Part shown: positions 285 through 50,285 of the stretch, piece after piece | Numbering within the stretch: position 1 is the stretch's first letter | Layout: every line of letters starts with the position of its first letter | Assembly (NCBI GenBank): GCA_013416795.1 | Contig: RQSC01000033.1 | Coordinates: forward strand, 401,514 to 453,396 | Direction of reading: 5' to 3' | Length of the DNA: 51,883 nucleotides | DNA from: Prasinococcaceae sp. CCMP 1430 | Lineage: Eukaryota; Prasinodermophyta; Palmophyllophyceae; Prasinococcales; Prasinococcaceae | Position numbers and translations under genes: made by a program | The notes under the pieces: model-generated | What the model was told of the DNA's origin: nothing | Database searches by the model: none | Seen by the model: the letters and a program-made list of their open reading frames with translations, nothing else

Positions 285-1053
285 CTACAACGGCCGCGGG
301 CACGGCTTGACGTCCCAAATGTCGTCCGCGTACTCCTGGATGGTGCGATCGCTCGAGAACTTGCCGCTGCCAGCCGTGCTCATGATGCTCATCGTGATCC
401 AACGCTCCTTGTCGAGGTAGGCGGCGTCCACCTCGTCCTGCGCGCGCAAGTAGTCGTCGAAGTCGTGCTGCAGCAGGTAGAAGTCGCTGTCGAGCGTGTC
501 GAGCATGGGGCCGAAGTACTCAGCCCAGCCGAAGTCGCCTGAGCGCACGCTGTGCATGGCGGCCTCGAAGCGCTCGCTCCCGCGGCGGTACTGCGTGCCG
601 TCGCGCACGCGCATCACCTCGTCCTTCGACGCGCCGAAGATGAACATGTTCTCCACGCCGATCTCCTCCGCGATCTCCACGTTGGCGCCGTCCATCGTGC
701 CGATGATCACGCCCCCGTTCATCACGAACTTCATGTTGCTCGTCCCGCTCGCCTCCGTGCCCGCCGTGGAGATGTGCTGGCTGAGCTCCGAGCCCGGCAC
801 GATGACCTCGGCGAGCGACACGTTGTAGTCGGTCATGAATGCCACCTTGAGGTACGGCGAGACGTCGGGATCGTTGTTCACCACCTCGCCCACCGCGTTG
901 ACGAGCTTGATGATGCGCTTGGCGGCGTCGTAGCCGGGCGCAGCCTTGCCGCCCAGCATCGCCATGCGCGGCACGACGTCCTTGCGCTCCTCCGGGCTCA
1001 TCCCCTTGATGCGATGGTAGCGGTCTATCAGCGACAGGATGTTCAGCAGCTGC

Positions 1054-1091
<38 letters not shown>

Positions 1092-3146
1092 GAGCGCGCC
1101 CTCCGGCGGGGTGACGCCGCAGCGCTCCTCGAGCAGCGCCGCCAGGCGCGCCTTGTTTGCCTGCTTGGACGCCCACCACTTCTTGCGGAACGCCTTGTCG
1201 TTGACGTGCTCGCGCAGCCCGGAGAGCAGGTCGAGGTGCGTGGTCCACATGGAGGTGCCCAGCGCCTCGGTGATGGTGTCGGCGAGCGTGGGGTTGCAGA
1301 ATGCCAGCCAGCGGCGCTGCGTGACGCCGTTGGTCTTGTTCTGGAACTTGTGGGGCCAGAGCTCGTAGAAGTCCTTGAAGATGGTCTCCTTGATGAGCTC
1401 CGAGTGGATCGCCGCCACGCCGTTGACGGTGTGGCTGGCCACCAGCGCCAGCGAGGCCATGCGCACCGCCTTGTAGCCCTCGTACTCCTCGATGATGCTC
1501 ATGCTGCTGATGCGGTCCCAGTCGTCGCCGAAGTGCGAGCGCACCTCCTGCAGGAAGCGCCAGTTGATGTCGTAGATGATCTGCATGTGGCGCGGCAGCA
1601 GCTGCTCCACGAGCTCCACCGGCCACTTCTCGAGCGCCTCGGGCAGCACGGTGTGGTTGGTGAAGGAGAAGACGCGCGTGGTGATCGCCCACGCCGAGGT
1701 CCAGCCGAGGCCCTCGTCGTCCATGAGCACGCGCATGAGCTCGGCCACGCCGATGGTCGGGTGCGTGTCGTTGAGCTGGATGGCCACCTTGTGGGGGAAC
1801 TCGTCGAAGTTCTCGTGGTGCTCCTTGTAGCGGCGGATCATGTCCTGGATGGAGGCGCTGACGAAGAAGTGCTGCTGCTTGAGGCGCAGCTCCTTGCCCT
1901 GGTACGTCCGGTCGTCGGGGTAGAGCACGGCGGAGATGGTCTCGGCGCGCTGCTTGTTGAGGATGGCCGCCACGTAGTCGCCGGTGTTGAACGACTGCAG
2001 GTCGAAGTCCTCGGCGGGCTTGGCACCCCACAGGCGCAGGTTGGTCGTGTTCTCGGTGCCGAAGCCTGGGATCGGGTTGTCGTACGCCACCGCCTCGATT
2101 TGCTCGGCCGGCACCCAGCGGAAGCGCTGGCGGCCGTCGTCGTCGTACACCTGCACGTGGCCGTAGAAGCCCACGGGGTAGCGCACGCTCACGCGCTCGA
2201 CCTCCCAGGGGTTCCCGAAGGTGAGCCAGTAGTCGGGGCTCTCGTGCTGGAAGCCGTCGGTGATGAACTGCTTGAACATGCCGTACTGGTAGCGGATGCC
2301 GTAGCCCCACGCGGGCAGGTTGAGCGACGCCATCGAATCGAGGAAGCACGCGGCCAGGCGGCCCAGGCCGCCGTTGCCCAGCGCGGCGTCGTTCTCCTGC
2401 TCGATGATGGTCTCCAGGTCGTAGCCGAGCTGCGCGAGCGCCTCCTCGTACTGCGTCTTGAGGCCGAGGTTCGAGACGACGTTGAGCAGCGAGCGGCCCA
2501 TCAGGAACTCCATCGAAAGGTAGTACACGCGCTTCGGGTTCGAGGTGTTGAAGTGCGCCTGCGTGTCGTTCCAGCTCTCCATCAGGCGGTCGCGCACGCT
2601 GTGCGCGATCGCCTGGTACGCCTCGCGGTTGTCGAACTTGTACCTGCTGCTGGCCACCGTGTACTCCACGTGGTTGATGATCGACTGCTCCAGGGACAGC
2701 ACGTCCGACTTGAGGTACGAGTCCATCAGCGAGAAGAGCAGCTGCGAGCGGTGCTTCTCCTCATCGTCCAGGCTTGCGCCGTCGGGCATGGTGCTGGGGG
2801 GCCGCACGTCGCCGCCGCGCGTGCTGTGCTTCTTTCTCGCGGCCACGGCGGCCTCGGTCTGCGTGAGCACCGTGGTGAGCACCGCCTGCACGTTCGTCGC
2901 CGTGGCGGGGCTGAGTTTTTTGCCGTCGCCGTCCTGGACGTAGAAGCTGTCCGAGGCGGTCGAGTCCGAGGTGTCGACCTCCGCGCGCTGCACGTCGAGC
3001 CCGAGGTCTTGCATGGTGGCGCACACCGTCTGCAGCAGGCCCGGGCGGTTGAACGCGGAGATGCACACGAGCGTCGCCGTGGGGTCCGCGTCGTTGTCGA
3101 CGGTGACCTTGAGGGCCGCGACATTCTTTCCCTTCTCCTTGGCGGC
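285..3146 (-). CDS. Alpha-glucan (glycogen/starch) phosphorylase with N-terminal ACT domain, 5' exon missing
   Basis: Phosphorolysis of alpha-1,4-glucan to glucose-1-phosphate (GT35 family, PLP-dependent). The first ~85 visible residues form an ACT domain (FNRPGLLQTVCATMQDLGLD, then a DSFYVQDGDGKK strand), a ligand-binding regulatory fold. The catalytic part follows with YYLSMEFLMGRSL, GNGGLGRLAACFLDS, QLNDTHPTIGVAELMR, KRIHEYKRQLLN and the PLP-site motif EASGTSNMKF, whose Lys is about residue 806 of the visible chain. It ends WDVKPCPRPL and the stop is TAG. Reading upstream there is no ATG before an in-frame TGA; a good acceptor (gctcgcag, cut before 3146) indicates that the start codon lies in an unresolved upstream exon. 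The family assignment is certain. The ACT fusion is seen directly, and I infer that it confers allosteric control. Confidence 0.93.
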
Positions 3147-5471
3147 CTGCGAGCGTCCGGCGCCATCGGGTCAGCGGCGCGCGCCGATGATGGACGCAGG
3201 CGGGCGCGGGCGTTTTTACGGTTCGACCTCCCAAAATGCGGCATTCCGGGCTTTCTCACGCCCCACACATCATCAAACCAAACCGCCGTTGGTGTGCTGG
3301 TTTTTGCTCGAGGCCAGCGCGAAGATCAAAACTCAACGCGCCGTTTTTGCGTGCATTCTGATACAACAAACAAAAAACATTTCGTGTGATTTATCGTCAC
3401 ATATTCCACCGACAATTCCCCGAGTGTGACCTGCAAAACACATGCAGTTTGGTTGGTGCTCAGAAAAAAAAAAGAGTTTTCCGGAGCTTTGGTTGGACCG
3501 CATCAATCGAGCGGTGGAAGGGACGCTCCTCCGCGCCGACGAGCCCCGGTGCACAGCTCCGGCCAGGCCCCGCCAGCTCGGCTCGGCGAGCGCTGCACCG
3601 ACCGACCCAGGCTCCGCGTCCGACCGACCGACCGAGCCTGCAGCGGGCGTGCAGCAGGGGCTGCCAGCCCGCCAGCGGGGTGCCTCCCTGCGTTCGTCGT
3701 TCGGACCTCATGGCGGCAGGGGCGCCCGCGTCCGACCGACCGAGGCGCGAGCTAACGGGCGCGAGGTGGCGACGCCACCCACCGACGCCAGCCACAGCCT
3801 CAGCTGTGCACGGCCCGAGCCGGCCGGGGACGCAGCCACAGCTCCCAGCCGCTGAAACGTTCACGTTCGCCGCGCGCCGAATCGAACTCTGCAGATTTTT
3901 AAGAACCTTTGGGTCGAGGTCAAAAGGCGCGGGAGGTGATGCGAATATTCCGCGAAACTGCCTCGGCGGCGGCGGCGGGCAAACGGCGCACTCGCGTTCG
4001 GGGAACCGCGCGGCGGCGCTGCCGCGGCGGGCGGGCGGGAGCCCCCTGCACCCGCGCTCCCCAGGCATCGCCCTGCGGGCGCCGCGCGCACCTCGCGCCC
4101 GCAGGCCCGCGCCGCGCCAGCGCGCACAAACCCCAAACACGACCCAAACCCACACGCGCCACTCTCATATCAAAAATAAAGATATTGGAGGGCCGGAGGG
4201 CGGGCCGCCGATCGCGGCCGCGGACCCTCCGCCCGCGCCACGGGCACGTGGGGCAGCTCTCCCCGCCCCCGCCCTGCTCCTTTTTCTTCTGGGCGCCGAG
4301 CCCTTTTCTCCTTTTCTTCGGTCCCGCCCGCAGCGCGTTTCGATCCAATCGGGGGCAAAGCCAAAAAAAAAGAGGGGCTTTCTTCGGCGTGTGTTTGCAC
4401 CATCGCATCCCGCTAACATCGCAAAAGGCCTTCGGAAGGGAGGTTTTTTTCCCGTTTCCGCGGGTGAATGCGTGCGTGCGCCGCCGATCGAAGGTGGCGG
4501 TGGCGCGAAAAGTGGGTGAGTGCCAGTTCTGCGGAAAGACTTTCGGTGTCGTTCGCGTTGGGCTTTTGTGGTTTGGCGCGGTGCGTCAGTTCGGTTTGAT
4601 TGGGTTTTGGGATGGAGGCCCAGGCCTCCGTCGCGTCCGAAGCGCGGAAAAACGGAAAAACGGCAACGCGGGAAAACGGCCCGCGCGCGCGCGCGCGCGC
4701 ACGCCGCGCGGTGGCGGAAGGGTGTGTGCGCGCGGGCGAATGCGAAGTGATGGCACCAAAATATCTATTTCGCGCTCGCGCGCGCGCGCCGGTTTCGCTG
4801 CGGCGGCCCGACCCGGCAGTCCGGGAGGTCCAACGCAACCACCCACCCACCCAACCAACCAACCGCCCCACCAACCAACGACGACGAACCTGCATCCAGC
4901 CGGGCGAAACGCGCGCGCGCGCGCGCGCGCTCGCGGCTTCCCGTCCCCATCCGTCCAAGCCTGACCGGCGCGATCCGCGCCCGATCGCGCGCCATCGAGC
5001 CCGCGCGCCCGAGCGCGTCCGAACCCCGTCCCCGATGGGCCCGAGACGCGACGCGGGGGGGAGAACGCGCAAACTGACCGACCGACGACTGACTGACGAC
5101 GGACTGCCGGCGGATGGATTGTCTTCCGGCGGGAATGACGCGGGCCCGCGCCGGCGCGCGCCGCGAACGCGACGCAGTTCGGGTTCGCACCATACGAAGA
5201 ATAACACAATGAAATATGATATATTTGATAAACCCTCATCAAAGGGGTCTCGGTCGTAACGATGTAAAGTGATGTGTTGGTGTTTAGGGTATGTGCCGAG
5301 GGGGAGGGAGGCTCGGTCGCGGAGGGGGCTTTTTCCCCCCCGGGCGCCGCCCGCCGCGCGCGCGAAACGAAAAATTCAAACGCGCGCGCGCGCGTTAACA
5401 CCGCCATCAAACGCCATGCGCCCGGCCCGCCCGAGCGCGCGCGCGCGCGCGCGCCGCGCGCGCGGCGCGCG
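3147..5471. other. Gene-poor GC-rich stretch with AT islands and simple repeats
   Basis: I see no recognisable protein or RNA gene. The open frames here are low-complexity Arg/Ala/Pro/Gly translations. There are AT-rich islands at about 3330-3480, 4145-4175 and 5205-5290, the last containing one TTTAGGG word, and alternating GC runs near 4681-4700, 4910-4930 and 5430-5470. The promoter and first exon of the upstream phosphorylase presumably lie in the first few hundred bases. Confidence 0.5.
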
Positions 5472-21997: not shown

Positions 21998-22368
21998 CCA
22001 AGGACGCCTAGATGAAGCGGCTACAGACGGCGCCCGGAAAGCTGCTGCGCTTCCTGTATATAGCGCAGAGGCGAGGGCACAGTAGAGTGCAGCAGCTCCA
22101 CTCGTGTGTGGGCGTTGCCGCGAGTGCAGCCCCCCCGTAATTCACAACGACAACCAAATGCATCCGCATCCACACGAACGACCCGCGCGGCGCTTGAGGG
22201 CCCCAGCCCGGCATTGTGGCGAGTACTTCGAGCGCGTCACGTGCGTGCCGCGCGTCCAGTCAGAAAATGCGAGCGCTGCGCCGTGTGCTGAGGCTGCCTT
22301 GCTTCTGCACCTCTTTACTTGTTTTCGAGTGAGCGCGCATGCGTGCGCGCCTACGTGCGCGCGTGCAC

Positions 22369-23298
22369 CTACGCCGCCTTCAGGATGGGCGTATGCTTGA
22401 GCTTCACAAGTAGCTTCTTCATGTGGGTCATGTCGGTGTCATTGACGCTCAGGTTGGAGTTCGAGTCAATGAGGCTGCCGACATCCTCCCACACGTTGCC
22501 GCTCGTGCCCATGGAGGCGACGCTGTCCTTGAGAGTCGCCTCGGCCTCACGGTTGGAGGCCTTGCGCGCCGTGATCTTGCGCTCCTGCTCGACGGCTGCA
22601 GCCGTGAGGAACTCCACTGCGGCAGACTTGGTGGCAGCGCGAGCCTCAGCCTCGACAGCGTCCTGCAAAAGCGTGAGCGGAGGGTCAGAGCGCTTCGCGT
22701 GCGCACGACAAATGGCACGGAGGACAACGCACGACTGCGCTCATGAAAGAACGCCCATGAATGCGAGTGCAGGCGTGCGTCCGCGGAAATGCACACGCGC
22801 GCGCGCGCGGACACGCATAGGACGGCCAGCACATGCAAGTGCACGGCACATGAGCGAGTGCGCTCAAATCTGCGCGGTCGCCCGCACCTTCGCGCGCAAT
22901 GTGTCGCGGTTGGCCATGATCCACTCATGCAGGGCATTCACCTCCTCGACCTCAGCGTCGGCAGCGGCGGGCGCATCGGCCACCACTGCATCTGCCGCAG
23001 GCACGGGCGCATCAGTGTCTGCGGCCGGCGCCTCGCCACTGAAGAAGCCATCGAGGCCATCGCCGGCGGGTGCTGCGGGGGCAGGGGCGGGTTCGCCAAA
23101 CATGCTCTCCAAGCCACCCTCGGGCGCGGCTGGCGCGTCCTCAGCCGGCGCGGGTGCAGCGTCGTCGGCGCTGAAGGCATCGGTGGCCCCCACTGCCTCG
23201 GCTGCGGGGGCTGCATCTGCGACGTCGGCGGGCGCGGCGGGCGCGTCCGCCTCAACGGCTGGCGGGGCGGCGTCAAACGCAGCGTCGAAGCCCTCCAT
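22369..23298 (-). CDS. Clathrin light chain, two exons
   Basis: Exons are 23298-22888 and 22662-22369, with a 225-nt GT-AG phase-0 intron, giving 234 aa. Light chains stabilise clathrin hubs on coated vesicles in the cytosol. The N-terminal half is Ala/Pro/Asp-rich and disordered, beginning MEGFDAAFDAAPP, with GLESMFGEP and GLDGFFSGE words. The heavy-chain-binding helix starts around LHEWIMANRDTLRAK and runs across the splice into DAVEAEARAATKSAAVEFL. KASNREAEATLKDSV follows, and the conserved end is VWEDVGSLID, then DMTHMKKLLVKLKHTPI, as in other light chains. The rarely conserved N-terminus makes the start codon choice rest on composition only. Confidence 0.88.
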
Positions 23299-23714
23299 CT
23301 TGCCCAGACTGATCGGGCTGGGGGGGGCTCGTCGCGCGCACAAGTGGCACTCCGGGATGCTCCCGCGCACTCTCCTGAGCCCCCGCCAGGGCGCGCCCAC
23401 GCGCGAGCGCGCCCTCCCGTGCCCACCCGCGCCCCTGCCCCGCCCGCGCCCGCAGACCGCAACAGCGCCGACACCAAGATGCTGCGCGCAGGGCAAAGCC
23501 GCGGGGCTGCCGCGCTCGCTCGCGCGCGCGCGCGCGCGTGAGCGCGGGGGAACCGGCGGTTGGCCTGGTTCAATCCTCAAGGGTACGCCGGACGTGGCCT
23601 GTTTCTCTCTGCTGTCCTTACATCTATCACCATATTTTACATTTAAAGTAACCACGGGTGCCGCGGCGCTGTTTTGGGCCACGGCACATGTACAGCGGCG
23701 ACGCAGCGTTGCGC

Positions 23715-23819
23715 CCCCCCCCCACCCACCCACCCACCCACCCACCCACCGGGGACCGCCTAACACACACACACACACACACACCACCCACCCACCTCAC
23801 CCACCGGGGACCGCCTAGA
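23715..23819. repeat. CCCA and CA microsatellites with a duplicated 3' flank
   Basis: A C run, then CCCA units, then a CA dinucleotide tract, then CCCA units again. The word ACCGGGGACCGCCTA ends each half (near 23747-23761 and 23805-23819), so the whole block looks like a partial duplication. It lies in the 3'UTR of the exchanger gene. Confidence 0.8.
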
Positions 23820-23848
23820 GCTAATGATGTCTCTCTAGCTAGAGTGCT

Positions 23849-26581
23849 CTAGAAGTATTTGTACGCCTTCAGCGCTGAGATGAGAATGTACACCATCCAC
23901 AGCACACCCATGCCTTTGGCGAACATTCCTGCAGGCCCCTTGGGCCCACCGAGTTCACCGCCGATGGTCCTCCTGCGCACGTAGAGCCACGCGAGACACA
24001 CGAGCGCGCAACCGATGAATGCCGCCAGCGAGATCCCGAGAGCGCCCGCCGGCTGCGCGTGCGCGATGCCATACTTGGCCTCTTTGTACGCGGTGGCCAC
24101 CAACCACGGCAGGCCAATGCCGAGGAACACGTTCACTGCGTTGGAGCCAGTGATATTTCCCAATGAGTTGTCCGCGGTGGGTTCGTTCTCGGCCGCCATT
24201 TTGGAGGCAAAGGTATCAGGCAGCGACGTGCCCAACGCAACGAAGGTGATGGCTGTCACCGAGTCCTTCAGGCCGACCACGCAGCCAAAGAGCCCCGCCA
24301 GCTCGCCCACCACGAAGGTGACCATGCCAATTGTCGTCAGCGACACGACGAAGCACACCCACCCACCCTTGTACTCCGGCGGCGGGATGATGGCGAAGAG
24401 CAGCTTCCAGAATATGGTCAGTCCGTGCATCACGAAGTCCATCGGCTCAGGCGGCAGCTCGGTCCTCCCATCGTCATCAAGGTCGCCATGAAGCATCAGC
24501 GCGTTCTTGAACTGGTCGATCCAGGCCTCGTTGTTTTCGCACCAGACACTGATCCTGCCGCCGATCCAGGCTTTCGAGGCCGACAAGCACTTGCCCACCG
24601 CCTCCGCGATGCCGTCCCCTCCTCCAGCGCGCTCGAGGCCTGGTAGGTCCAGCGCCTGTACGATGCCGATGTCAACACGCGGCGGCTCGTCCATCACGGA
24701 ATTAATGCGCCTGATCATGACGTGCAGCCTCCCTGCGGGATTCTTCCTTTCGTCCAACAGGTCAACCCACCGTTCCGCCTGCACAGTGGTGGCGAGGATC
24801 TCCGCGGTGTCCTTAATGACGCCACCGCACATGTAATCGTCCGCCGAGAGATGGTCGTGGTCCCACACGGCAAACTCGATGGGCAGCGACATGTTTTTGC
24901 CCTTGAAAGTGAGCACGTCCATGTACACGGGATTGATATTGCGCATGACGTGCTCGGTCTGACTGCGCTGTTTGCCGAACTTCACCTTGACGTATGGGTC
25001 GCTCGAAAGGCCCTTGGCGTTCGTCTCGGGCAGCGGCTCGGGACGAAGCTTGTCCTCGTCGGGCAGGTGGAGCGGCGCAGTGAGTTTCATGGACATCATC
25101 GCCACCAAGCGAATGCGCGCACCGCCCGAAAGGAAGCGCACGGCATTCGAGCGGTACGTCAGGTAGTTGTTGCGGTGCTCCTCTTCCCCTTCGGTGTCAC
25201 CGCCCTCTGCGAACTGAACGCGGCGGTCCGCGGCCGCCTTCGCTGCGCTGCCATCCTCGAGGGCGTCGATCTGCGCCTCGAGGGAGGTGCTGGAAGTGCC
25301 GACCTCTGAGGGCACCGCGTCTTCGCCGCGCCTGCCGGGCAGGAATCTCCAGCCGACGTCCGCGCCATACGCCAGCCCAACAAGCAGTGGGAAGTGGGCC
25401 ACCGTGATGCAGGCCTCAACGAGCGTCACCTCGTCCTTGGACCACACCGCCAGCACGATGTACAACCACAAGTACGCCCATATCGAAAAGAACGATGTGA
25501 TCGAGAACACGCCGTAGTGCTCGACGCGCGTAATCTCGCCATCCTTCGGCGCCGTCACACACACACCGCTGATGATAAGCAGGTTGAAAGCGGCTCAGCC
25601 CACGATGGTACTCGGCCCGAGCTCGCCGGGAACCTCCTCCAGCGTGAGCAGCGTCTCCATCAGGCTGAGTAGTATCTCGGGCGCGCTCGAGCCCAGCGCC
25701 ATCAGCGTCAAGTTGGCCACGGTGCCGTTCCACACCAAGTACGTGCGCGTGCGGCCGGTCGGATTGCCTTTGCTGTCCTTGACGTTGATGGTCTTTTCCT
25801 TAGAGGTGATGACCTCGATTGCATTCATGAACACGTCTGCCACGATGGCCACACCTAGAAAAGTGTAGAGAAGCGCAACCAGGTACAGCACGATGCGCCC
25901 CTCGCGGGACCACAGGTTGGAGCCCGCAAGGAGCAGGTAGCTCTCGCAGTAGTAAGGCATATCTTGCTTGGCGGGGGGCGTCCAGATCTCCACCATGTAA
26001 CCGTTGTAGATGCCGGACCCACTGCCGGGTGCCCACTGCTTGCACTCAACATTGAAGGTTTCGCGCAGGAAGTCGCAGGCATCGGCGGCGTCGAAGGCTG
26101 CGCAGTCAAAGGAGCGCACGTACGGCGCGTCCTCGCCCGGCAGTCCAGCGTAGGTAACCGCCATGCTCGAGCACAGCTGTTTCGCGGGCGTCCAGCCGGC
26201 CACGGGAAATATCAGGCCCGAATCAGCGTATGTGAAGGTGTGCACGTCGTCAACAGAGACGAGCGCGCGGCCAGCGGCAACCCCGACAGCGACGTCGGCT
26301 GAGCCGTCCAGAGTCATCTCGCCATCCTGCTCGCCCAGTGTGACGACGAAGGGCGTCTCCGTCGCGTCATCCATCTCCACAGCAATACTGTCTCTCACGG
26401 CGCTGCCGAGCAGCGAGCGCGCGTACGCGGGGCCTTCTGGCCTTTCCAGCAGGCCAGCGTACTCGCCGATGCCGCGCCAGCACACGAGGCCCACCGAGTA
26501 GGCGGCGAAGGCGCCAACCTTGGCGAGCACCCTCGGGCGCACGCCGAAGCGGCGGCGCAAAGGGGCGCGGTCACCGAGCAT
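23849..26581 (-). CDS. Na+/Ca2+ exchanger (NCX family) with a C2 domain in the loop and one in-frame TGA
   Basis: One continuous frame of 910 codons is broken only by a TGA at 25595-25597. From the N-terminus: a membrane anchor (LAKVGAFAAYSVGLVCW), a Cys-containing lumenal domain, TM helices, and alpha-1 (LMALGSSAPEILLSLMETL ... GPSTIVG-TGA-AAFNLLIISG). A long cytosolic loop and alpha-2 (VALGTSLPDTFASKMAAE ... GNITGSNAVNVFLGIGLPW) follow, then a last TM helix. The loop (residues ~494-629) holds a C2 domain (SSDPYVKVKFGKQRSQTEHV, IEFAVWDHDHLSADDYM), where animal NCX has Calx-beta domains. The TGA takes the place of the conserved Ser in GSAAFN. Ca2+ extrusion at the plasma membrane or an organelle is inferred. 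The start at 26581 was chosen because the upstream frame is low complexity. Confidence 0.9.
25595..25597 (-). other. In-frame TGA codon at a conserved Ser position of the exchanger
   Basis: The frame is open for 328 codons before and 581 after this codon, and homology is unbroken on both sides (TIVG before, AAFN after), so no intron or frameshift accounts for it. TCA to TGA would be one base. Other genes here end with TGA, so the code is not changed. The choices are recoding (selenocysteine or readthrough), a nonsense allele or a base error. Confidence 0.85.
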
Positions 26582-26870
26582 CTCGCGCGCTGCCAGTTCT
26601 GCGTGAGGGTGGCACGCGAGCGGAGTGTGCGCGGACGCCTGGGGCACAGGCGCGCGAGGCACGCGCGCGCGGCGCCCACGCGGCGCCCACTCCGCGCCGG
26701 CGCGCTCCCGCAGCGCAAATCTATCTCGCGCAGCACAGCGGGCGCGTGCGCCGTGGGCGCGCCGAGGCCCCCAGGGCGCGTTGGGGGATGGGGAGGGGGG
26801 GGGGGGCGCGACGCCTGACGCGCGCGCTCTACCGGCACAGCGGCACCACTCCACGCCGCGCCCCAATCTC

Positions 26871-26907
<37 letters not shown>

Positions 26908-27488
26908 ACACACATCCCCAGGATGAGAGCGCCGCGCTCGCAGCTGCCGCCGCGCGTGCGCAGCAGACGCCGGGGCGTTCGGTTACAGTTCGGCAGTCGC
27001 GCCCGGGGGAACGGGGCCAATTCGGATGTCTTGGTTGGGGCGATTGTACCATCGATTGATGGTACTCAAGCTAGCGTTGGCATGCATTTTAGTCTAGTTG
27101 GGGTTACGACTCTGCGTCAGGGGCGAAGAGGCGGCGGCCGGGGTGGGCAAACCGCCCCGGCTATCGAAAACGCAGGCGCGGTTCCCCCCGACAACGCCGC
27201 TTCCGCGTGGCGCCCGCGCCTACCTCGATCAAATTGCAGCACCATCACGATGATATGTGCACGCGTAGAGCGCGAAGGGGCGGTTTACCTTGGTGCGCGG
27301 CGGACACCCACTGAGGGAGTTGCGCCCACCCACCCCCACCCTCCACCGCCTCCTAGGCGCTCACCAGGGAACACGTACAGTACTGTGCGCCTCGGTCTGG
27401 CCGCTTAGGACGATGCCAGGCAAAGGCAAACCTGTCGCAGCTGCACGTGCGTCGAATCCTCGAATGCCCCCTGTCGCTGTCGCCCAAT
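26582..27488. other. 5' flank of the exchanger gene, 3' flank of the cyclophilin gene
   Basis: 907 bases without a recognisable gene. It holds the 36-C run, an interrupted palindrome GTACCATC-GATT-GATGGTAC at 27046-27065 and a second palindromic word ACAGTACTGT at 27377-27386. The exchanger promoter should lie here. Confidence 0.5.
26872..26907. repeat. Homopolymer of 36 C
   Basis: An uninterrupted C run on the plus strand is a 36-G run on the transcribed side, about 290 bases upstream of the exchanger start codon. Its exact length is doubtful in any read technology. Confidence 0.85.
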
Positions 27489-38578: not shown

Positions 38579-39506
38579 GTGCGAGTTACGGTTCATTCAT
38601 TCGGGTCACTCACGCTTTTTACGGAAAAGGGTTTCTATCACATGCGCACAGCATAGCCGGGGTCGCGGCCGGCGTGCCGACGCGCGTGTGGCGCCCCGGC
38701 GCGCCGGGCGCGCGCCGGAATTCTCTCCCGCGAATTTGGAAAATCAAATCGAATGTGCAATGCCAGCAGCTGCCGGCGGCGAAAGCGCGGCGGCCGGCGA
38801 AGCGCCGGCTCCCCCGGCCGGTCGCGAAACGCCGCGGGTTTTGCGATTTCGCGCGAAACCGCTTTGGGATCGATGGGCGCCGCGCGCGTTTTCGCCGGCG
38901 CGGTTTCGCGGCGCGATCCGCGTGTTCGTGGCTGTGGGTGACTGGGCGGGTGCGCTGCCGCCCGCCGCCGCGGCCGGTGCCGGGCGCACGGCGCTGGAAG
39001 GAGGAGGTCGCCTGGGCCAGCCATCGTCACGGGCTGGGGTGGAGCCTGGGCGGGGGCACTGCCGCGCCCCCGGCGTGCCCGCGCGTGCAGCAGGCGGGCA
39101 CCGCGCTGCCGCGTGGCTGCGCGCGGCGCTGCGAGCAGTCATTCACCGGAGCGAACCTAACCTTATCCAAAAAGGAGGGGCCGACGCGTCCGATTGAATT
39201 GATCCTGATTGTACAGTACCGCAAACAATGCAAGACCAAACCCAAACGACTGGAGCCAGGGCGGGGAGCGCGGTCGCCACCCACCCACGCCGCGGGTTCG
39301 TGCAGGCGCCGCGGCGCCCGCCGCCACAGGGCGCCCGCCCCACCCACCCCTCACCCAAACCCCTCCCCCAAACCCACGCGCGCGCGCACCACGCACGTGC
39401 GATCCACGCAGACGCGCTCGTCAGCGCGCCGAGCATGCGCCAGGCGGCGGTGCTGCGGCGCCTCGGCGTGATGCGCCCCGCGCATCGCCGCGCGCCGCGC
39501 TCCCGA

Positions 39507-40679
39507 CAAGATTATTTACAAGAACATGAATTTTCGACACGACATTTTAAATATGTATTGAAACGCAAACTTTATTTAAAAAATTTAAATAAGGCTTTAT
39601 ATTCGATATGGTATGGTCTTCTACTCTTAAAAAGTTCTACCCTACCTCTAAAAAAACTAGATAAAAAAACACAATTAAATTCTAGCTATACTCACGATGA
39701 AGAATTAAAAAATTTATTAATTAATTTACATATTGAAGCCTGTTTAGTAGAAACTTTAAGAAATGGGGGAACAATAGAATTAATTTATGGAATTGAACGT
39801 GAATTAAGATTTTTAGGTATTGAATTTAATGAATTTTTTAATGCTATTCAGTTAAAAAAATGGGTTGTAAAACCAATCGTTAGTTCATTCTCTAATCCTA
39901 TTGTTTCGTCATTATCGAATAATTCAAAAAGACAAACCTTAATTAAGAATTTTTTATCGACAGGTTATTTTATTAAACGGGACACATTACAAGTAATTCA
40001 AAAATTAGAAAGTGAATTAAGAGATGAACACCTAAATATCAGTGTAAATATTCCTGAAAATTTAGCAACAAATTTAATTGTTTCATTCCCTTTTTACGCT
40101 AATATTAGTTATTTAAAAGAAAATCCTTTTTTTATAATAAAGGATAAACTTAATTTTGAAGAAATATTTTCAATTTTATTGTTAACTCAAGAAAATTTTT
40201 CTAAATCAGATGCCGACTATTGTCTTCAAGAATTAAAACAAAAAAATTGGGGAGATTTTTTGATTATCACTATTGACTATATTAAACTTCGTTATCCAGC
40301 TCTTTTAGTTGAATTTTTATACCGTCTAACACGTAAGCCAACAGTTTTTCCAATAATTCCCCAGACTAATAAAAAAGTAAATTGTCCACTTGGGGTATGG
40401 AGTTCCATTACTAGTTATCAAAAACTACGTAAAGATTATGTCAGTGCATATCAATCATTAACAACTATTGAAGAAAAAATTGAACTTGAAAAAGCTTTTG
40501 AGACAATTGCAAATCATTTACAATATAATATTCGTCAAAGTATGTTGTCATTTTTTGATCAAAAATATAATAGTTCACTAATGCAAAGGTCTGATAAATG
40601 TGTTATTGTGGATACTGAATTAGAAAGCTTCTTTTTACGAAAAACATTAAAAAATTATCTTTTAAATATGGTATACTAG
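39507..40679 (+). CDS. ycf55: Plastid Ycf55-like protein (DUF3685), N-terminus cut at the junction
   Basis: 390 visible codons in plastid composition, with no in-frame ATG near the left end. The frame runs leftwards straight into nuclear sequence, so the true start is lost. The C-terminal ~200 residues carry words such as RYPALLVEFLYRLTRKPTVF and CPLGVWSSITSYQKLRKDYV, and it ends LESFFLRKTLKNYLLNMVY. I associate these with Ycf55/DUF3685 proteins of red-lineage plastids and cyanobacteria, from memory and not certain. The function of Ycf55 is unknown; some cyanobacterial relatives carry a response-regulator domain. It precedes rps14 by 45 bases on the same strand. Confidence 0.5.
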   Translation, partial: QDYLQEHEFSTRHFKYVLKRKLYLKNLNKALYSIWYGLLLLKSSTLPLKKLDKKTQLNSSYTHDEELKNLLINLHIEACLVETLRNGGTIELIYGIERELRFLGIEFNEFFNAIQLKKWVVKPIVSSFSNPIVSSLSNNSKRQTLIKNFLSTGYFIKRDTLQVIQKLESELRDEHLNISVNIPENLATNLIVSFPFYANISYLKENPFFIIKDKLNFEEIFSILLLTQENFSKSDADYCLQELKQKNWGDFLIITIDYIKLRYPALLVEFLYRLTRKPTVFPIIPQTNKKVNCPLGVWSSITSYQKLRKDYVSAYQSLTTIEEKIELEKAFETIANHLQYNIRQSMLSFFDQKYNSSLMQRSDKCVIVDTELESFFLRKTLKNYLLNMVY

Positions 40680-40724
40680 TAAAAATTCTAAATTTAAAAA
40701 CCTTTAAAGTAGGAGAAATATTTT

Positions 40725-41027
40725 ATGGCACGTAAAGGTACAGTTTATCGTGATAAGAAACGACGAGTATTAGTTCAAAAATATGCAACAAAACGAGCAA
40801 AACTTTTAAATGAATTTAAAAGTGCCTCTACAATTGGTGAAAAATTAAAAATTCACGCAAAGATTCAAAAACTGCCGCGAAACTCAAGTCGCACACGTTT
40901 ACATAATCGTTGTTTTATTACAGGACGACCAAAAGGATATTTCCGTTTCTTTGGTTTATCAAGACATCAAATTCGTGAATTGGGTTATGTAGGAGTATTA
41001 CCGGGCGTAACTACTGCAAGTTGGTAA
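40725..41027 (+). CDS. rps14: Plastid ribosomal protein S14
   Basis: 100 aa, the normal length, ending [20 protein letters not shown] plus SW. The N-terminus [20 protein letters not shown] and the motif [20 protein letters not shown] are typical of S14 in the head of the 30S subunit. A Shine-Dalgarno AGGAG (40711-40715) sits nine bases before the ATG. Confidence 0.98.
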
Positions 41028-41079
41028 ATTATTATTTAATCAAGAATCTTTTTATTTTATGGTATACTTTATATATGGT

Positions 41080-41153
41080 CGCGGGGTAGAGCAGTCTGGT
41101 AGCTCATCGGGCTCATAACCCGAGGGTCAGTGGTTCAAATCCGCTCCCCGCTA
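41080..41153 (+). tRNA. trnfM: Plastid initiator tRNA-fMet (CAU)
   Basis: 74 nt with a full cloverleaf. The first base pair C1-U72 is unpaired, and the anticodon stem holds the three G-C pairs of an initiator around CAU. The T loop is TTCAAAT. A TATACT word (near 41062) may be its -10 box. Confidence 0.95.
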
Positions 41154-41183
41154 TCTATATATAAATAACTTTTAATTAAAAAT

Positions 41184-41417
41184 ATGGTTAAAATTAGACT
41201 TAAAAAATTAGGACGTAAAAAAGCACCATTTTACAGAATTATTGTAATTGACAGTCGTAAACGACGTAGTGGTCATGGTTTAGTTGAACTTGGATGGTAT
41301 GATCCAATTAAAAAACAATCACAAATTGATCGTCAAAAGACTTTATTTTACATTAAAAATGGGGCTCAACCGACAGCCACTGTTTCTGCTTTATTACAAA
41401 AAGCAGCATTATTGTAG
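41184..41417 (+). CDS. rps16: Plastid ribosomal protein S16
   Basis: 77 aa, beginning MVKIRLKKLGRKKAPFYRII and containing DSRKRRSGHGLVELGWYDP, as in bacterial and plastid S16. It has no intron, unlike land-plant rps16. Its presence argues against a chlorophyte plastid. It is located between trnfM and trnK on the same strand. Confidence 0.97.
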   Translation: MVKIRLKKLGRKKAPFYRIIVIDSRKRRSGHGLVELGWYDPIKKQSQIDRQKTLFYIKNGAQPTATVSALLQKAALL

Positions 41418-41466
41418 ATTTAAAAATATTAATATTTAAAAAGAGCATAATAGTTCTTTTTAAATC

Positions 41467-41538
41467 GGGTTGGTAGCTCAGGGGTAGAGCACTCGGCTTT
41501 TAACCGACTGGTCGTGGGTTCAAATCCCACCCAACCCA
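41467..41538 (+). tRNA. trnK: Plastid tRNA-Lys (UUU)
   Basis: 72 nt; acceptor GGGTTGG pairs with CCAACCC, anticodon loop CTTTTAA, T loop TTCAAAT. No intron and no matK, unlike land plants. Confidence 0.95.
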
Positions 41539-41563
41539 AAATTTAAATGCTTTTTCGTACTTT

Positions 41564-41648
41564 GCATGCATGGCCGAGTGGTCGAAGGCAGGGGCCTCAT
41601 AAGCCTCCTCCCGAAAGGGCACCGCGGGTTCAAATCCTGCTGTATGCA
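41564..41648 (+). tRNA. tRNA with CAU anticodon and class-II long variable arm, probably trnI(CAU)
   Basis: 85 nt. Acceptor GCATGCA pairs with TGTATGC, discriminator A73; D stem GCC/GGC; anticodon stem GGGGC/GCCTC around the seven-base loop CTCATAA, so positions 34-36 read CAT. The variable arm is 16 nt with a CCC-GAAA-GGG hairpin, and the T stem-loop is regular. The acceptor and anticodon loop resemble plastid trnI(CAU), which is read as Ile after lysidine modification. The long arm is normally seen only in Leu, Ser and bacterial Tyr tRNAs. Identity as Ile is inferred; Met or Ser charging cannot be excluded. Confidence 0.75.
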
Positions 41649-41676
41649 AACCTTTCAAGACTCTAAATTAATAATA

Positions 41677-41706
41677 TTGCATTTATAACTATTATTAGGT
41701 TATAAT
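41677..41706 (+). promoter_or_regulatory. Sigma70-type plastid promoter of trnQ
   Basis: TTGCAT (41677-41682), an 18-base spacer and a perfect TATAAT (41701-41706), nine bases before the first base of trnQ. Confidence 0.6.
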
Positions 41707-41715
41707 ATAATTAAA

Positions 41716-41787
41716 TGGGGTATCGCCAAGTGGTAAGGCAACTGGTTTTGGTCCTGTCATTCGGAGGTTCGAATCCTTCTACCCCAG
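41716..41787 (+). tRNA. trnQ: Plastid tRNA-Gln (UUG)
   Basis: 72 nt; acceptor TGGGGTA pairs with TACCCCA, discriminator G, anticodon loop TTTTGGT with TTG at 34-36, T loop TTCGAAT. It is the last plus-strand gene before the petD-psbH cluster. Confidence 0.96.
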
Positions 41788-41819
41788 TTATTAAATAAAA
41801 TTATTTTTATAAAAATCGC

Positions 41820-41866
41820 TTTTATTTTTAATTGTTTAATAATTTATTAAACAATTAAAAATAAAA
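41820..41866. terminator. 23-bp perfect stem-loop between trnQ and petD
   Basis: Arms 41820-41842 and 41844-41866 around one unpaired base, purely A/T except two C-G pairs. It lies seven bases after the petD stop codon and 32 bases after trnQ. Plastid 3' stem-loops of this kind define and protect mRNA ends; it could serve both convergent units. Confidence 0.75.
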
Positions 41867-41873
41867 ATACTTC

Positions 41874-42356
41874 TTAGAATAAACCAAGTGTAATAGCTTT
41901 ATCAATTGGCATTGCTGCTCCTACACCCATCCATAATGCAAAGATTGTTCCAAATAGGAAAACAACCATAGCAATCGGACGACGGAATGGGTTTTGGAAT
42001 TTGTTTACGTTCTCAATAAACGGAACAGTAATTAATCCAGCTGGAACTGCAGCCATAGAAAGTACTCCAAGTAATTTATTAGGAATAGTTCGAAGTAAGT
42101 TAAATGTTGGGAAGAAATACCATTCTGGTAAAATCTCTAGTGGTGTTGCAAATGGATTTGCAGGCTCACCTACTACAACTGGATCTAAAGTTGCTAGTCC
42201 AATAAGACAAGCAAATGTTCCAAAAATAACTACTGGGAAAATATATAATAAATCATTTGGCCATGCAGGCTCACCATAATAGTTATGCCCCATACCTTTA
42301 GCTAATTTAGCTCGTAAAATTGGATCTGTTAAGTCTGGTTTTTTTGTTACGCTCAT
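41874..42356 (-). CDS. petD: Cytochrome b6f complex subunit IV
   Basis: 160 aa, full length. [20 protein letters not shown] starts it; [20 protein letters not shown] and [20 protein letters not shown] are hallmark segments, with the PEWY motif forming part of the Qo site. Three TM helices. It has no intron and follows petB by 59 bases on the minus strand. Confidence 0.98.
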
Positions 42357-42415
42357 AGTAAATTTATAATATTAAAAAATATTTATATTTGTATATCTGA
42401 CAATTAAATTAAAAA

Positions 42416-43063
42416 TTATAGTGGACCAGAAATACCTTGCTTACGAATCATTAAGAAGTGTGCTAGCATGAATACCGCTGTTAGCAGTGGTAAAACAAAC
42501 GTGTGTGCACTATAGAAACGCGTTAATGTTGCTTGACCAACACCAACACCTCCACGAAGTACTTCAACTAGTAACGGACCTACAACAGGAATAGCTTCAG
42601 GTACACCTGTTACAATCTTACAAGCCCAGTAGCCAACCTGATCCCATGGTAATGAGTATCCAGTTACACCAAATGATACTGTACAAACAGCCATAATAAC
42701 ACCAGTTACCCAAGTTAACTCACGTGGCTTCTTAAATCCACCTGTAAGGTAAACACGTGTCACATGTAGAATCATTGATAAAACCATCATACTTGCAGAC
42801 CAACGGTGGATTGAACGAATTAACCAACCAAAGTTTACATCACTCATTAGGTAACTTACAGAATCAAATGCTTCTGTTACTGTTGGACGGTAATAAAATG
42901 TCATTGCAAATCCTGTTGCAACTTGTACTAGGAAACATGTAAATGTAATACCACCTAAGCAGTAAAAAATATTTACATGTGGAGGAACATATTTACTTGA
43001 AACGTCATCAGCAATTGCTTGGATTTCTAGACGTTCTTCAAACCAATCATAAACTTTACTCAT
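42416..43063 (-). CDS. petB: Cytochrome b6
   Basis: 215 aa, full length, four TM helices with the haem-ligand His pairs ([20 protein letters not shown] and [17 protein letters not shown]). Cys in [14 protein letters not shown] is the covalent site of haem c(i). It starts [20 protein letters not shown]. No intron. It is co-oriented with petD and psbH and probably co-transcribed. Confidence 0.98.
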
Positions 43064-43126
43064 AAAATACTAAAAGTTTTTACAGTTTATCGCCAGTTAA
43101 CATAATATAAAAATTTATATTGTAAG

Positions 43127-43146
43127 CTCAATAATATTTTATTGAG
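43127..43146. other. Short stem-loop upstream of petB
   Basis: CTCAATAA and TTATTGAG (eight pairs) around a TATT loop, about 65 bases before the petB start on the minus strand. A possible RNA processing or stability element. Confidence 0.5.
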
Positions 43147-43164
43147 GGAAGTTAAAAAATTTCT

Positions 43165-43228
43165 ATTTTAATTTTGGTATGTTTTTAATGAAAAAGATTT
43201 TTCATTAAAAACATACCAAAATTAAAAT
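43165..43228. terminator. 31-bp perfect stem-loop between psbH and petB
   Basis: Arms 43165-43195 and 43198-43228 are exact reverse complements with a two-base loop. It starts two bases after the psbH stop codon (minus strand). As an RNA it is extremely stable and would form the processed 3' end of psbH mRNA within the psbH-petB-petD unit. Confidence 0.85.
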
Positions 43229-43230
43229 TC

Positions 43231-43434
43231 TTATTGCCAGTTTACGGCTAATCCATCAAGTAACACTGATGAATTAAAGATTTCTAATAAAATTACATTA
43301 AAAACTAAAAAAAGACCACCAGCTACAGCCATTGGAATAGTTGTTCCCCATCCAGGGGCAACTTTACCATACTCTGAGTTTAGTGGCTTTAAAAGGTTTC
43401 CTAAAACTGTTTGCTTTCCTTTTGTTGCTGCCAT
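43231..43434 (-). CDS. psbH: Photosystem II phosphoprotein H
   Basis: 67 aa with one TM helix ([20 protein letters not shown]), preceded by [18 protein letters not shown] as in all PsbH. The N-terminus [13 protein letters not shown] is short, as in algae and cyanobacteria. It stabilises PSII assembly at the thylakoid. Confidence 0.97.
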
Positions 43435-43571
43435 AGGTATGTATATATGTATTTATTCGTATGATTTAATGCTAAAAAAATATGTGCTATAATTCTCTTT
43501 AAATAGATATGTTCTTTACATAAATAGAACAATAACTTTTCAAGTAAATCCCAATAAATTAGGAGTGAATT

Positions 43572-43703
43572 ATGGAAACAGCTATGCTATTTGGTATTTT
43601 TTTCGGTACATTACTTGTTGGCATGACAGGGTATTCATTATACACTGCTTTTGGCCAACCATCAAAAACACTTCGTGATCCATTTGAAGACCATGAAGAT
43701 TAA
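43572..43703 (+). CDS. psbN: PsbN, photosystem assembly factor
   Basis: 43 aa: [20 protein letters not shown], then [20 protein letters not shown], ending HED. One TM helix. It lies on the opposite strand between psbH and psbT, the conserved position. Shine-Dalgarno AGGAG at 43561-43565, six bases before ATG; a TATAAT at 43488-43493 may be its own -10 box. Confidence 0.96.
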
Positions 43704-43707
43704 AAAG

Positions 43708-43738
43708 TATAACAGCAGACTTAATATCTGCTGTTATA
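43708..43738. terminator. 12-bp stem-loop between the convergent psbN and psbT ends
   Basis: Arms 43708-43719 and 43727-43738, seven-base loop, four bases after the psbN stop and five before the psbT stop codon. Probably a bidirectional RNA 3'-end element. Confidence 0.8.
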
Positions 43739-43743
43739 AAAAA

Positions 43744-43839
43744 CTATTTTACAATACGTGGAGGCTCACGGAAAAAGATTGCAAAGAAAATAATTCCTAA
43801 AGTTCCAACTAATAAAAAAGTATAAACAAGTGCTTCCAT
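43744..43839 (-). CDS. psbT: Photosystem II protein T
   Basis: 31 aa: [20 protein letters not shown], then [11 protein letters not shown]. One TM helix at the PSII dimer interface. psbB would normally precede it on the minus strand, but the plastid sequence ends 24 bases upstream at the N. Confidence 0.96.
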
Positions 43840-43863
43840 TTATATATCCTCGTAAATTAATAA

Positions 43864-46867: not shown

Positions 46868-47684
46868 CGGCCGCCCCGGCCGACCCGGCCGGCCGGCATT
46901 CGTTCAGGCAGCGCCCGTCCCTCCGGGGAGACCGACGGCTGGTGCCGATCCGTACGGGCGCGCGCGCCGATCGGACGGCGGGAACGCGCCGCCGCACACA
47001 CGCGCGCGCGCGCGAATGCGAACGCGCGCGCCGACGAACCAACGGAACCGAAAGCGAAGGCGAAAGCGCAAAGCGCAAAGGCGCGCGGCGAAAGCGAAAA
47101 GCGAAAGCGAAAGCGAAAGCGGCCTGATGCGCTCCCCGTCCCCATTCGCGCGCGCGCGAGTTCGCGCGAATGCGCCTTTGCGGATTCGGTGCGCGCAGCG
47201 CCGGTTCGTACGGAGCCGCTGCTGTCGCTGTCGCTGCTGCTGCTGCTGCTGCGCGCGGAGCAGCGGCGCGCTCGCCCCCCCCGTTGGGTTTGGGGGGGAG
47301 GCGAGGGGGGCAAGGAGGGGTGCGCGCGCGCGCGCGTGCGCGTGCACGCACGCGCCTCACTCAACGCCTGTGAGTGTGGACGCGCCACACGCTGCGCGCC
47401 GTCGCAGCGACTCTCTCCCCGAGGACACGCCGCTCCGCCGCTCTCGATGGCCGCCGCAGCCGTGCGCTTGCGGGCGCGTACCACTGCTCAGGCACCAGCG
47501 TAGGCTCGGCGCTTCCGAGCGCTTGCGCCCGGCAGAAGCCCACGGCTGAGCGAGAGCGTGCTGCCCGCGCTGACATGGCTGNGAGCGCGTTGCCACCCCA
47601 CCCCTTTGTCCCCCTCCCTCGCTCTCGCCGAAACCGCCCGCGCGGACGAACGAACGAACGAACGAACGACGCGACGGGAGAACA
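46868..47684. other. Low-complexity region with GCGAAA repeats and one N
   Basis: GCGAAA hexamers run at 47050-47127, a GCT triplet run is near 47220-47250, alternating GC is near 47325-47345 and GAAC repeats lie at 47648-47668. An N is at 47582. No gene is recognised. The first exon and promoter of the following phosphorylase should be here or are missing. Confidence 0.5.
47582..47582. other. Single ambiguous base upstream of the second phosphorylase
   Basis: The N lies about 100 bases before the first clear phosphorylase codons and makes the start codon undecidable. Confidence 0.6.
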
Positions 47685-50285
47685 GTGACGCTGCCCGGCC
47701 TCGCCGTGGGCGCCGCGGCCGGCGCCGCGGCCGCCGCCCTGGCGCTCAAGAACTCGCCGGCGAAGGAGCGCTTCGCCTTCGACGCCTCGCCCGTGCCCGC
47801 CAAGGACGACATCGACAGCTCCATCATGTACCACGCGGAGCACACGGCCACGTCCACGCCCGCCAACGCGGCCAAGCCGAGCGCCTACCAGGCGTACGTC
47901 GCGGCCGCCGCGTCGGTCGCCGACCGCGTGCTCGAGAACTGGAACGCCACGCAGGCCACCTTCGACGAGGAGAACCCCAAGCAGGTGTACTACCTGTCGA
48001 TGGAGTTCCTGCAGGGCCGCGCGCTCACCAACGCGCTGGGCAACCTCGAGCTCACCGAGGAGTACGCCGCCGCGCTGCGCAAGCTCGGGTACGAGCTCGA
48101 GGACGTGGTCGCCGCCGAGTCGGACATGGCGCTGGGCAACGGCGGCCTCGGCCGCCTGGCGAGCTGCTTCCTGGACTCCATCGCGAGCCTCGAGCTGCCC
48201 GGCTGGGGCTACGGCCTGCGCTACAAGTACGGCCTCTTCAGGCAGGCCGTCGACGGCATCGACCAGACCGAGTCGCCCGAGTCGTGGCTCGACCGCTCCA
48301 ACGTGTGGGAGGTGCCGCGCTACGACGTGAGCTACCCCGTGCGCTTCGGCGGCAGCGCCACGGCCGACGGCAAGTGGGTGGGCGGCACCGTCTTCGACGT
48401 GATGGCCTACGACACGCCCATCCCGGGCTACAAGACGCGCAACACCATCTCGCTGCGCCTGTGGCAGGCCAAGCCGGCGTCCGACCTGTTCGACCTGCCC
48501 TCGTTCAACGCCGGCGAGCACCAGGCGGCGATGGCCACCGTGGGCGAGGCCGAGGCGCTCTGCGCGGTGCTGTACCCCGGCGACGACAGCCGCGAGGGCA
48601 AGGCCCTGCGCCTCAAGCAGCAGTACATGCTGTGCTCGGCGAGCCTGCAGGACATCATCAACACCTTCAAGGCGCGCGGCAACGCCAGGCTGTCCGACCT
48701 GCCCAAGAAGGCGACCATGCAGCTCAACGACACCCACCCCACGCTCGCCATCCCGGAGCTGATGCGCATCCTCATGGACGAGGAGGGCCTCAACTTCGAC
48801 AACGCGTGGAAGATCACCTCGCAGTGCGTCAACTACACCAACCACACCGTGCTGCCCGAGGCGCTCGAGAAGTGGGACTACGCGCTCACCAAGGAGCTGC
48901 TGCCGCGCCACGTGCAGATCATCGAGCAGATCGACGCGCACTACAAGAAGAGCTTCCCCAAGGCGCCCGAGTCCACGTACATCATCGAGTACGAGGAGGC
49001 GGAGGCGGAGGAGGCGCCGGCCGCGGCGGCGGCCAAGGAGGCCGCCGCGGCGGCCAAGGCCCCCGAGCCCGTCCCCTCGGTCGTGCGCATGGCCAACATG
49101 TGCGTGATCGCCGGCAAGTACGTGAACGGCGTGGCCGCCATCCACTCGGAGATCGTCAAGGACGACGTCTTCAACGACGCGTACAAGCTCTTCCCGAACA
49201 AGTTCCAGAACAAGACCAACGGCGTCACGCTCCGCCGCTGGCTGGCGTTCTGCAACCCCAGCCTCACCGCGCTCATCTCGGAGAAGCTGGGCGGCGACGA
49301 GTGGCTCTCCGACTGGACGCAGCTCGAGCGCCTGCGCGAGTTCGCGGACGACAAGGACCTGCAGGCGGCGTGGCGCGAGTCCAAGCTCGACAACAAGCGC
49401 AAGCTCGCCGAGTACGTGTACGAGACGCAGGGCATCAAGCTCAACCCCGAGGTGGAGATGTTCGACATCCAGGTGAAGCGCATCCACGAGTACAAGCGGC
49501 AGCTGCTCAACATCCTCGGCGTGGTCTACCGGTACAAGAAGATGAAGGAGATGTCCTCGGCGGAGCGCGCCAAGGTCGTGCCGCGCGCCGTGATGATCGG
49601 CGGCAAGGCGTTCGCCACCTACGAGCAGGCGAAGCGCATCGTCAAGTTCATCAACGCGGCTGGCAAGGTGATCAACGCCGACAAGGACGTCGGCGACAAG
49701 CTCAAGGTGGCCTTCCTGCCCAACTACAACGTCTCGCTGGCGGAGAAGATCATCCCCGCGAGCGAGCTCTCGCAGCACATCTCCACCGCCGGCATGGAGG
49801 CCAGCGGCACGTCCAACATGAAGTTCACGCTCAACGGCTGCCTGATCATCGGCACGCTCGACGGCGCGAACGTGGAGATCCGCGAGTGCGTCGGCGAGGA
49901 GAACTTCTTCCTCTTCGGCTACGAGACCGAGGACATCCCGCGCCTCCGCGCGGAGCGCGCCGCGGGCAAGTTCGTGCCCGACCCGCGCTTCGTCGAGACC
50001 GTGGACTACATCAAGAGCGGCGTCTTCGGCGAGACCTTCGAGGACATGCTCGACTCGCTGGAGGGGAACGAGGGCTTCGGCCGCGGCGACTACTTCTGCG
50101 TGGCGGCGGACTTCCCGGCGTACATCGAGGCCCAGGAGAAGGTGGACGAGGCGTACCTCGACCAGGACAACTGGACGAAGATGAGCATCCTGAACACCGC
50201 CGGCTCGGGCTTCTTCTCGAGCGACCGCACCATCAAGCAGTACGCGGACGAGATCTGGGACGTCAAGCCGATCCACGTCGAGTGA
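47685..50285 (+). CDS. Alpha-glucan phosphorylase, plant plastid-like insert, start unresolved
   Basis: A second GT35 phosphorylase of about 866 visible residues without an ACT domain. Motifs in order: VYYLSMEFLQGRALTNALGN, ALGNGGLGRLASCFLDSIAS, QLNDTHPTLAIPELMRILMD, FQNKTNGVTLRRWLAFCNPS, QVKRIHEYKRQLLNILG and EASGTSNMKF with the PLP Lys713. An acidic, Ala-rich insertion of ~30 residues (EEAEAEEAPAAAAAKEAAAA) sits just before VRMANMCVIAGKYVNG, exactly where plant plastidial PHO1 carries its L80 insertion. No ATG is available in frame: an acceptor-like gagaacag precedes 47685 and an N lies further up. The hydrophobic Ala-rich beginning could be the end of a targeting peptide. Confidence 0.93.
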   Translation: MTLPGLAVGAAAGAAAAALALKNSPAKERFAFDASPVPAKDDIDSSIMYHAEHTATSTPANAAKPSAYQAYVAAAASVADRVLENWNATQATFDEENPKQVYYLSMEFLQGRALTNALGNLELTEEYAAALRKLGYELEDVVAAESDMALGNGGLGRLASCFLDSIASLELPGWGYGLRYKYGLFRQAVDGIDQTESPESWLDRSNVWEVPRYDVSYPVRFGGSATADGKWVGGTVFDVMAYDTPIPGYKTRNTISLRLWQAKPASDLFDLPSFNAGEHQAAMATVGEAEALCAVLYPGDDSREGKALRLKQQYMLCSASLQDIINTFKARGNARLSDLPKKATMQLNDTHPTLAIPELMRILMDEEGLNFDNAWKITSQCVNYTNHTVLPEALEKWDYALTKELLPRHVQIIEQIDAHYKKSFPKAPESTYIIEYEEAEAEEAPAAAAAKEAAAAAKAPEPVPSVVRMANMCVIAGKYVNGVAAIHSEIVKDDVFNDAYKLFPNKFQNKTNGVTLRRWLAFCNPSLTALISEKLGGDEWLSDWTQLERLREFADDKDLQAAWRESKLDNKRKLAEYVYETQGIKLNPEVEMFDIQVKRIHEYKRQLLNILGVVYRYKKMKEMSSAERAKVVPRAVMIGGKAFATYEQAKRIVKFINAAGKVINADKDVGDKLKVAFLPNYNVSLAEKIIPASELSQHISTAGMEASGTSNMKFTLNGCLIIGTLDGANVEIRECVGEENFFLFGYETEDIPRLRAERAAGKFVPDPRFVETVDYIKSGVFGETFEDMLDSLEGNEGFGRGDYFCVAADFPAYIEAQEKVDEAYLDQDNWTKMSILNTAGSGFFSSDRTIKQYADEIWDVKPIHVE

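Follow-up and report, generated by a model that had tools for sequence, protein, structure and literature searches.

A premature TGA at the conserved alpha-1 serine of an algal Na+/Ca2+ exchanger gene very probably reflects a single-base change rather than recoding

In Na+/Ca2+ exchangers of the animal NCX1 type, Calx-beta regulatory domains sit in the central loop. In the archaeal exchanger NCX_Mj, Ser77 belongs to the twelve residues that coordinate ions, and replacing it by alanine moderately lowers transport (PMC4753433). In an exchanger gene of Prasinococcaceae sp. CCMP 1430, we find the site homologous to Ser77 occupied by an in-frame TGA. The gene lies within a window of 51,883 nucleotides, the whole stretch of DNA analyzed here (GenBank assembly GCA_013416795.1, contig RQSC01000033.1, positions 401,514 to 453,396). 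In our assessment, this codon is very probably not recoded but the product of a lone point change, whether an error in the consensus or a nonsense allele of recent origin.

The exchanger gene and its interrupted codon

The exchanger gene occupies positions 23849–26581 on the minus strand. With the TGA read through, it runs as a single exon from an ATG at 26581 to a TAG at 23849–23851, with 910 codons before the stop and no other stop along the way, in agreement with the first-pass annotation, which had described one unbroken frame of 910 codons save for the TGA. The TGA itself is present where that annotation had placed it, at 25595–25597 on the minus strand, and forms codon 329. A phmmer search matched the protein to the human NCX1 structures 8jp0 (E = 3e-111) and 8sgi, the match to 8jp0 spanning both halves, and Pfam assigned two Na_Ca_ex repeats (PF01699) and one C2 domain. 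The first repeat (alpha-1; 25370–25885, minus strand; profile match C84:426883-427398) is interrupted by the TGA, the only one inside the match, and the second (alpha-2; 23879–24364, minus strand; Pfam and profile matches) is intact. The two repeats carry the GSSAPE and GTSLPD motifs of NCX1-type exchangers, and the C2 domain (24758–25024, minus strand) falls in the central cytosolic loop. The Pfam search passed no domains other than Na_Ca_ex and C2, Calx-beta not being matched in that loop, and the exchanger is NCX1-like in its membrane part only. A Na_Ca_ex search of the genome returned three exchanger genes in total, one of them NCX1-type, and no second copy of the NCX1-type gene. By its architecture the gene is an NCX, the family arrangement being kept and a single codon out of line.

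In the alignment to NCX1 obtained with phmmer, a serine stands opposite the TGA (GPSTIVG-S-AAFN), so that the codon does replace the conserved alpha-1 serine, as first proposed. Where NCX1-type exchangers have the serine of the alpha-1 G-S-x-x-F-N motif as an ion ligand, this gene has TGA instead; the asparagine of the motif is retained. Both exchanger paralogues in the genome encode serine at this position (AGT and TCC) within the alpha-1 motif GSAVFN. A first scan of prokaryotes with the whole exchanger protein yielded no relatives. Serine was subsequently found in 75 of 75 prokaryotic relatives with a readable motif. In 29 of them the search pattern lies upstream of the site; the others are a biased sample, having been found by a pattern that itself includes the serine.

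The GC3 of the gene is 0.817 before the TGA and 0.816 after it, which indicates that the 581 codons following the TGA are coding. This part of the gene is a living gene, or was so until very recently. Of the 911 codons of the whole gene, 47 lie one base step from TGA, four TCA serine codons among them; TCA, itself one step from TGA, accounts for 4 of the 51 serine codons.

Selenocysteine in this genome and at the exchanger codon

In other genes of this organism, TGA is read as selenocysteine. SepSecS is present (E = 4e-112), apparently with one intron; the stops inside this gene lie in what looks like the intron. Several GPX matches carry one TGA each, and in the five GPX genes in which the codon was read, it occupies the Sec position of the GPX motif; the TGA flagged in the GPX match on C89 lies outside these five. 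A gene of the Rdx family (Rdx/SelT-like, CxxU) reads FCQS-TGA. The MsrA matches in the genome are free of TGA, and the genome search for Sep15/SelM gave nothing above the cut-off. No tRNA-Sec was found by Rfam, whose matches on C136 are ordinary Leu and Ser tRNAs, or by a purpose-written pattern, the tRNA search having scored only 53 of 2135 candidates, and a TIGR00476 search of the genome returned no SelD. These two gaps probably reflect the limits of the searches and not absence. In the GPX gene on C68 we also observed a perfect tandem repeat of 81 bp in which the Sec-codon TGA occurs twice (L014 (G000:C68) 1425-1587); the gene could have two Sec codons, or the doubling could stem from an intron or from misassembly.

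Because the genome decodes selenocysteine, Sec at the exchanger TGA is a fair hypothesis to test, and its prior is raised by the fact that the other in-frame TGAs read in conserved genes are all at Sec sites. The first-pass annotation had pointed to TGA stops in other genes of the window; these are real, but they do not exclude selenocysteine, since the organism uses TGA for both purposes. In favor of decoding are also the intact frame beyond the codon, a strong hairpin in the 3′ interval whose loop is rich in A, and the presence in this organism of SepSecS, of GPX genes whose TGA marks the Sec site, of the CQS-TGA gene and of SECIS elements.

We searched for SECIS elements as a UGA/GA core followed by AA or CC 11–13 nt on, in the 3′ region. 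In the control genes, these elements take the form (A/G)TGA...AA/CC...GA and lie 35–455 nt past the next in-frame stop, some of which may be intronic. Our scanners recovered four elements of the ATGAC-G...-AA type downstream of the GPX genes on C68, C3, C76 and C75. The element at C89 has GTGA, that at C135 has a CC loop, and a weaker but plausible one follows the stop codon of the Rdx gene at a distance of 67 nt. Rfam at gathering thresholds reports no SECIS in the window, and at the control loci its SECIS_1 model matched no more than a single element, at 20.6 bits. As this model recovers so little at the controls, we used our own scanners and a model built from the four GPX elements.

The region from the exchanger stop codon up to the next gene (23303–23851, minus strand) contains no SECIS candidate and no ATGA in the 549 nt from the stop to 23303; two GTGA sequences occur there, and neither forms a hairpin of the right shape. 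For comparison, a SECIS candidate turns up by chance in 12% of random 549-nt intervals drawn from the window. A SECIS search of 23300–23848 (minus strand) had been proposed at the outset, and purpose-written scanners gave no candidate there. No element was found inside the gene by a looser scan (AUGA or GUGA) or downstream as far as 21500 by a strict scan. The GPX-derived model, which scores 49–68 bits on its four training elements, reaches at most 10.1 bits on the minus strand and 10.9 bits on the other strand over 22000–27200. The GC-rich hairpin with an AAAA loop noted earlier at 23658–23687 (minus strand) is real by folding, with a ΔG of −24.9 kcal/mol and a z score of −2.8 (23640–23700). 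Its 5′ foot lacks UGA and its 3′ foot lacks GA, and the missing quartet that had been remarked on by eye is indeed absent. The next gene, on the same strand as the exchanger, starts at approximately 23299 and by its look was taken for a putative clathrin light chain.

The earlier judgment that selenocysteine is unsupported thus holds up, since no SECIS stands in the exchanger gene at the place where the genome's control selenoprotein genes carry theirs. Decoding through a SECIS that lacks the standard core, or through one outside the scanned interval, is in our view very improbable: the interval has no AUGA and no candidate with GUGA, the hairpin is without the UGA/GA core, and the residue aligned with the TGA is an ion-ligand serine, never cysteine, in the relatives compared. 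The site being that of the ion-coordinating Ser77 of NCX_Mj, there is no redox reason for Sec at this position, and the algal selenoprotein literature that we searched names no exchanger. It is just as doubtful that Sec would replace an ion-coordinating serine in a selenoprotein Na+/Ca2+ exchanger. We know of no other selenium-containing ion exchanger; were the TGA to encode Sec, this would be the first known, and calcium transport would be tied to selenium supply. As by-products of this search, the alga emerges as a user of selenocysteine, and its set of SECIS elements provides a yardstick for other in-frame TGAs in the genome.

Readthrough, splicing, editing and a single-base change

UGA is generally the leakiest stop codon, and programmed readthrough would yield some full-length exchanger beside a short fragment. 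Beyond that general property, only the intact downstream frame speaks for such a mechanism, which we rate as a slim prospect. The context of the exchanger codon, UGA-GCC, is not, to our knowledge, a known readthrough motif. Nor does a stable stem follow the TGA, as the next 60–100 nt fold no better than shuffled sequences (z of +0.4 and +0.7); the gene thus has neither a promoting 3′ context nor a downstream stem. In addition, the short product would end in the middle of alpha-1 and has no evident use.

Removal of the TGA by splicing, or its alteration by RNA editing, is more improbable still. Introns seem to occur in some genes of this genome, and nothing more direct favors splicing here. Excision of the TGA by any of the shortest in-frame GT/GC-AG pairs would also take away parts of the conserved motif, which upholds the first-pass view that no splice site fits, and intron models around the codon were rejected because the motif would be cut. 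As to editing, A-to-I or U-to-C changes in UGA give Trp or Arg, not Ser.

Of the four explanations originally put forward, a nonsense allele and a base error remain, whereas selenocysteine and readthrough are unsupported. We infer both that the exchanger TGA is not decoded and how the odds divide between error and allele; we rate the claimed recoding as not a real feature of this gene, while the TGA itself stands in the sequence. By this account an ordinary NCX1-type gene would have had a serine codon turned into a premature TGA by one base, and the ribosome would receive no signal to recode it. A wrong base in the consensus sequence is the explanation to which we lean, at close to an even chance, and a young nonsense allele of the only NCX1-type gene of the strain is a serious, if tentative, possibility. 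In the latter case, only a 328-residue fragment would be made, ending inside the first ion-binding repeat, and it would be expected not to work. Unchanged GC3 and the lack of a second lesion are what either an error or a mutation of very recent date would show, and the otherwise perfect gene, together with the absence of another NCX1-type copy, tilts the balance slightly toward a consensus error.

We also surveyed stops in 115 Mito_carr and 19 ABC matches. The sole flagged TGA, in a Mito_carr match, is the stop of the gene itself, and one TAG falls in a weak 36-bit match. Isolated internal stops thus seem rare in the assembly, which counts against an error or an allele.

The assembly is a draft, with lone N bases and a 350-N gap, and a consensus error is plausible in view of these lone Ns and of a plastid stretch that ends at one. 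This stretch, at 39504–43863 of the window, is AT-rich plastid DNA inside a GC-rich nuclear contig and is 100% identical over 4360 nt to the plastid-bearing contig C136. It holds the psbN region, four tRNAs and, by eye, rps14-, rps16-, petD- and petB-like genes, and either stems from a chimeric join or was inserted very recently from the plastid. Contig C136 (477 kb) combines plastid genes with MsrA and mitochondrial-carrier matches and, in a second stretch, matches part of the petD–petB piece at 75% identity (G000:C136:286385-289185 and 365930-366572); it may itself be chimeric. Two long intact frames lie at the ends of the window, at 285–3170 (minus strand) and 47574–50285 (plus strand), and from their translations look by eye like putative glycogen/starch phosphorylases.

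Comparison with selenoprotein genes and NCX1

Like the GPX and Rdx/SelT-like selenoprotein genes of this genome, the exchanger has an in-frame TGA in an otherwise intact conserved gene. In the selenoprotein genes the TGA marks a redox Cys/Sec site and a SECIS follows downstream, and the exchanger has neither; of the features expected of a eukaryotic selenoprotein, it shows the Sec-decoding organism but not the SECIS or the aligned Cys or Sec. The exchanger differs from SLC8/NCX1 in the TGA at the alpha-1 serine and in a central loop that has a C2 domain without a Calx-beta match. It shares with SLC8/NCX1 both alpha repeats, the large loop that separates the two halves, and the motifs GSSAPE and GPSTIVG-AAFN (first repeat) and GTSLPDTFASK and GNITGSNAVNVFLGIG (second repeat).
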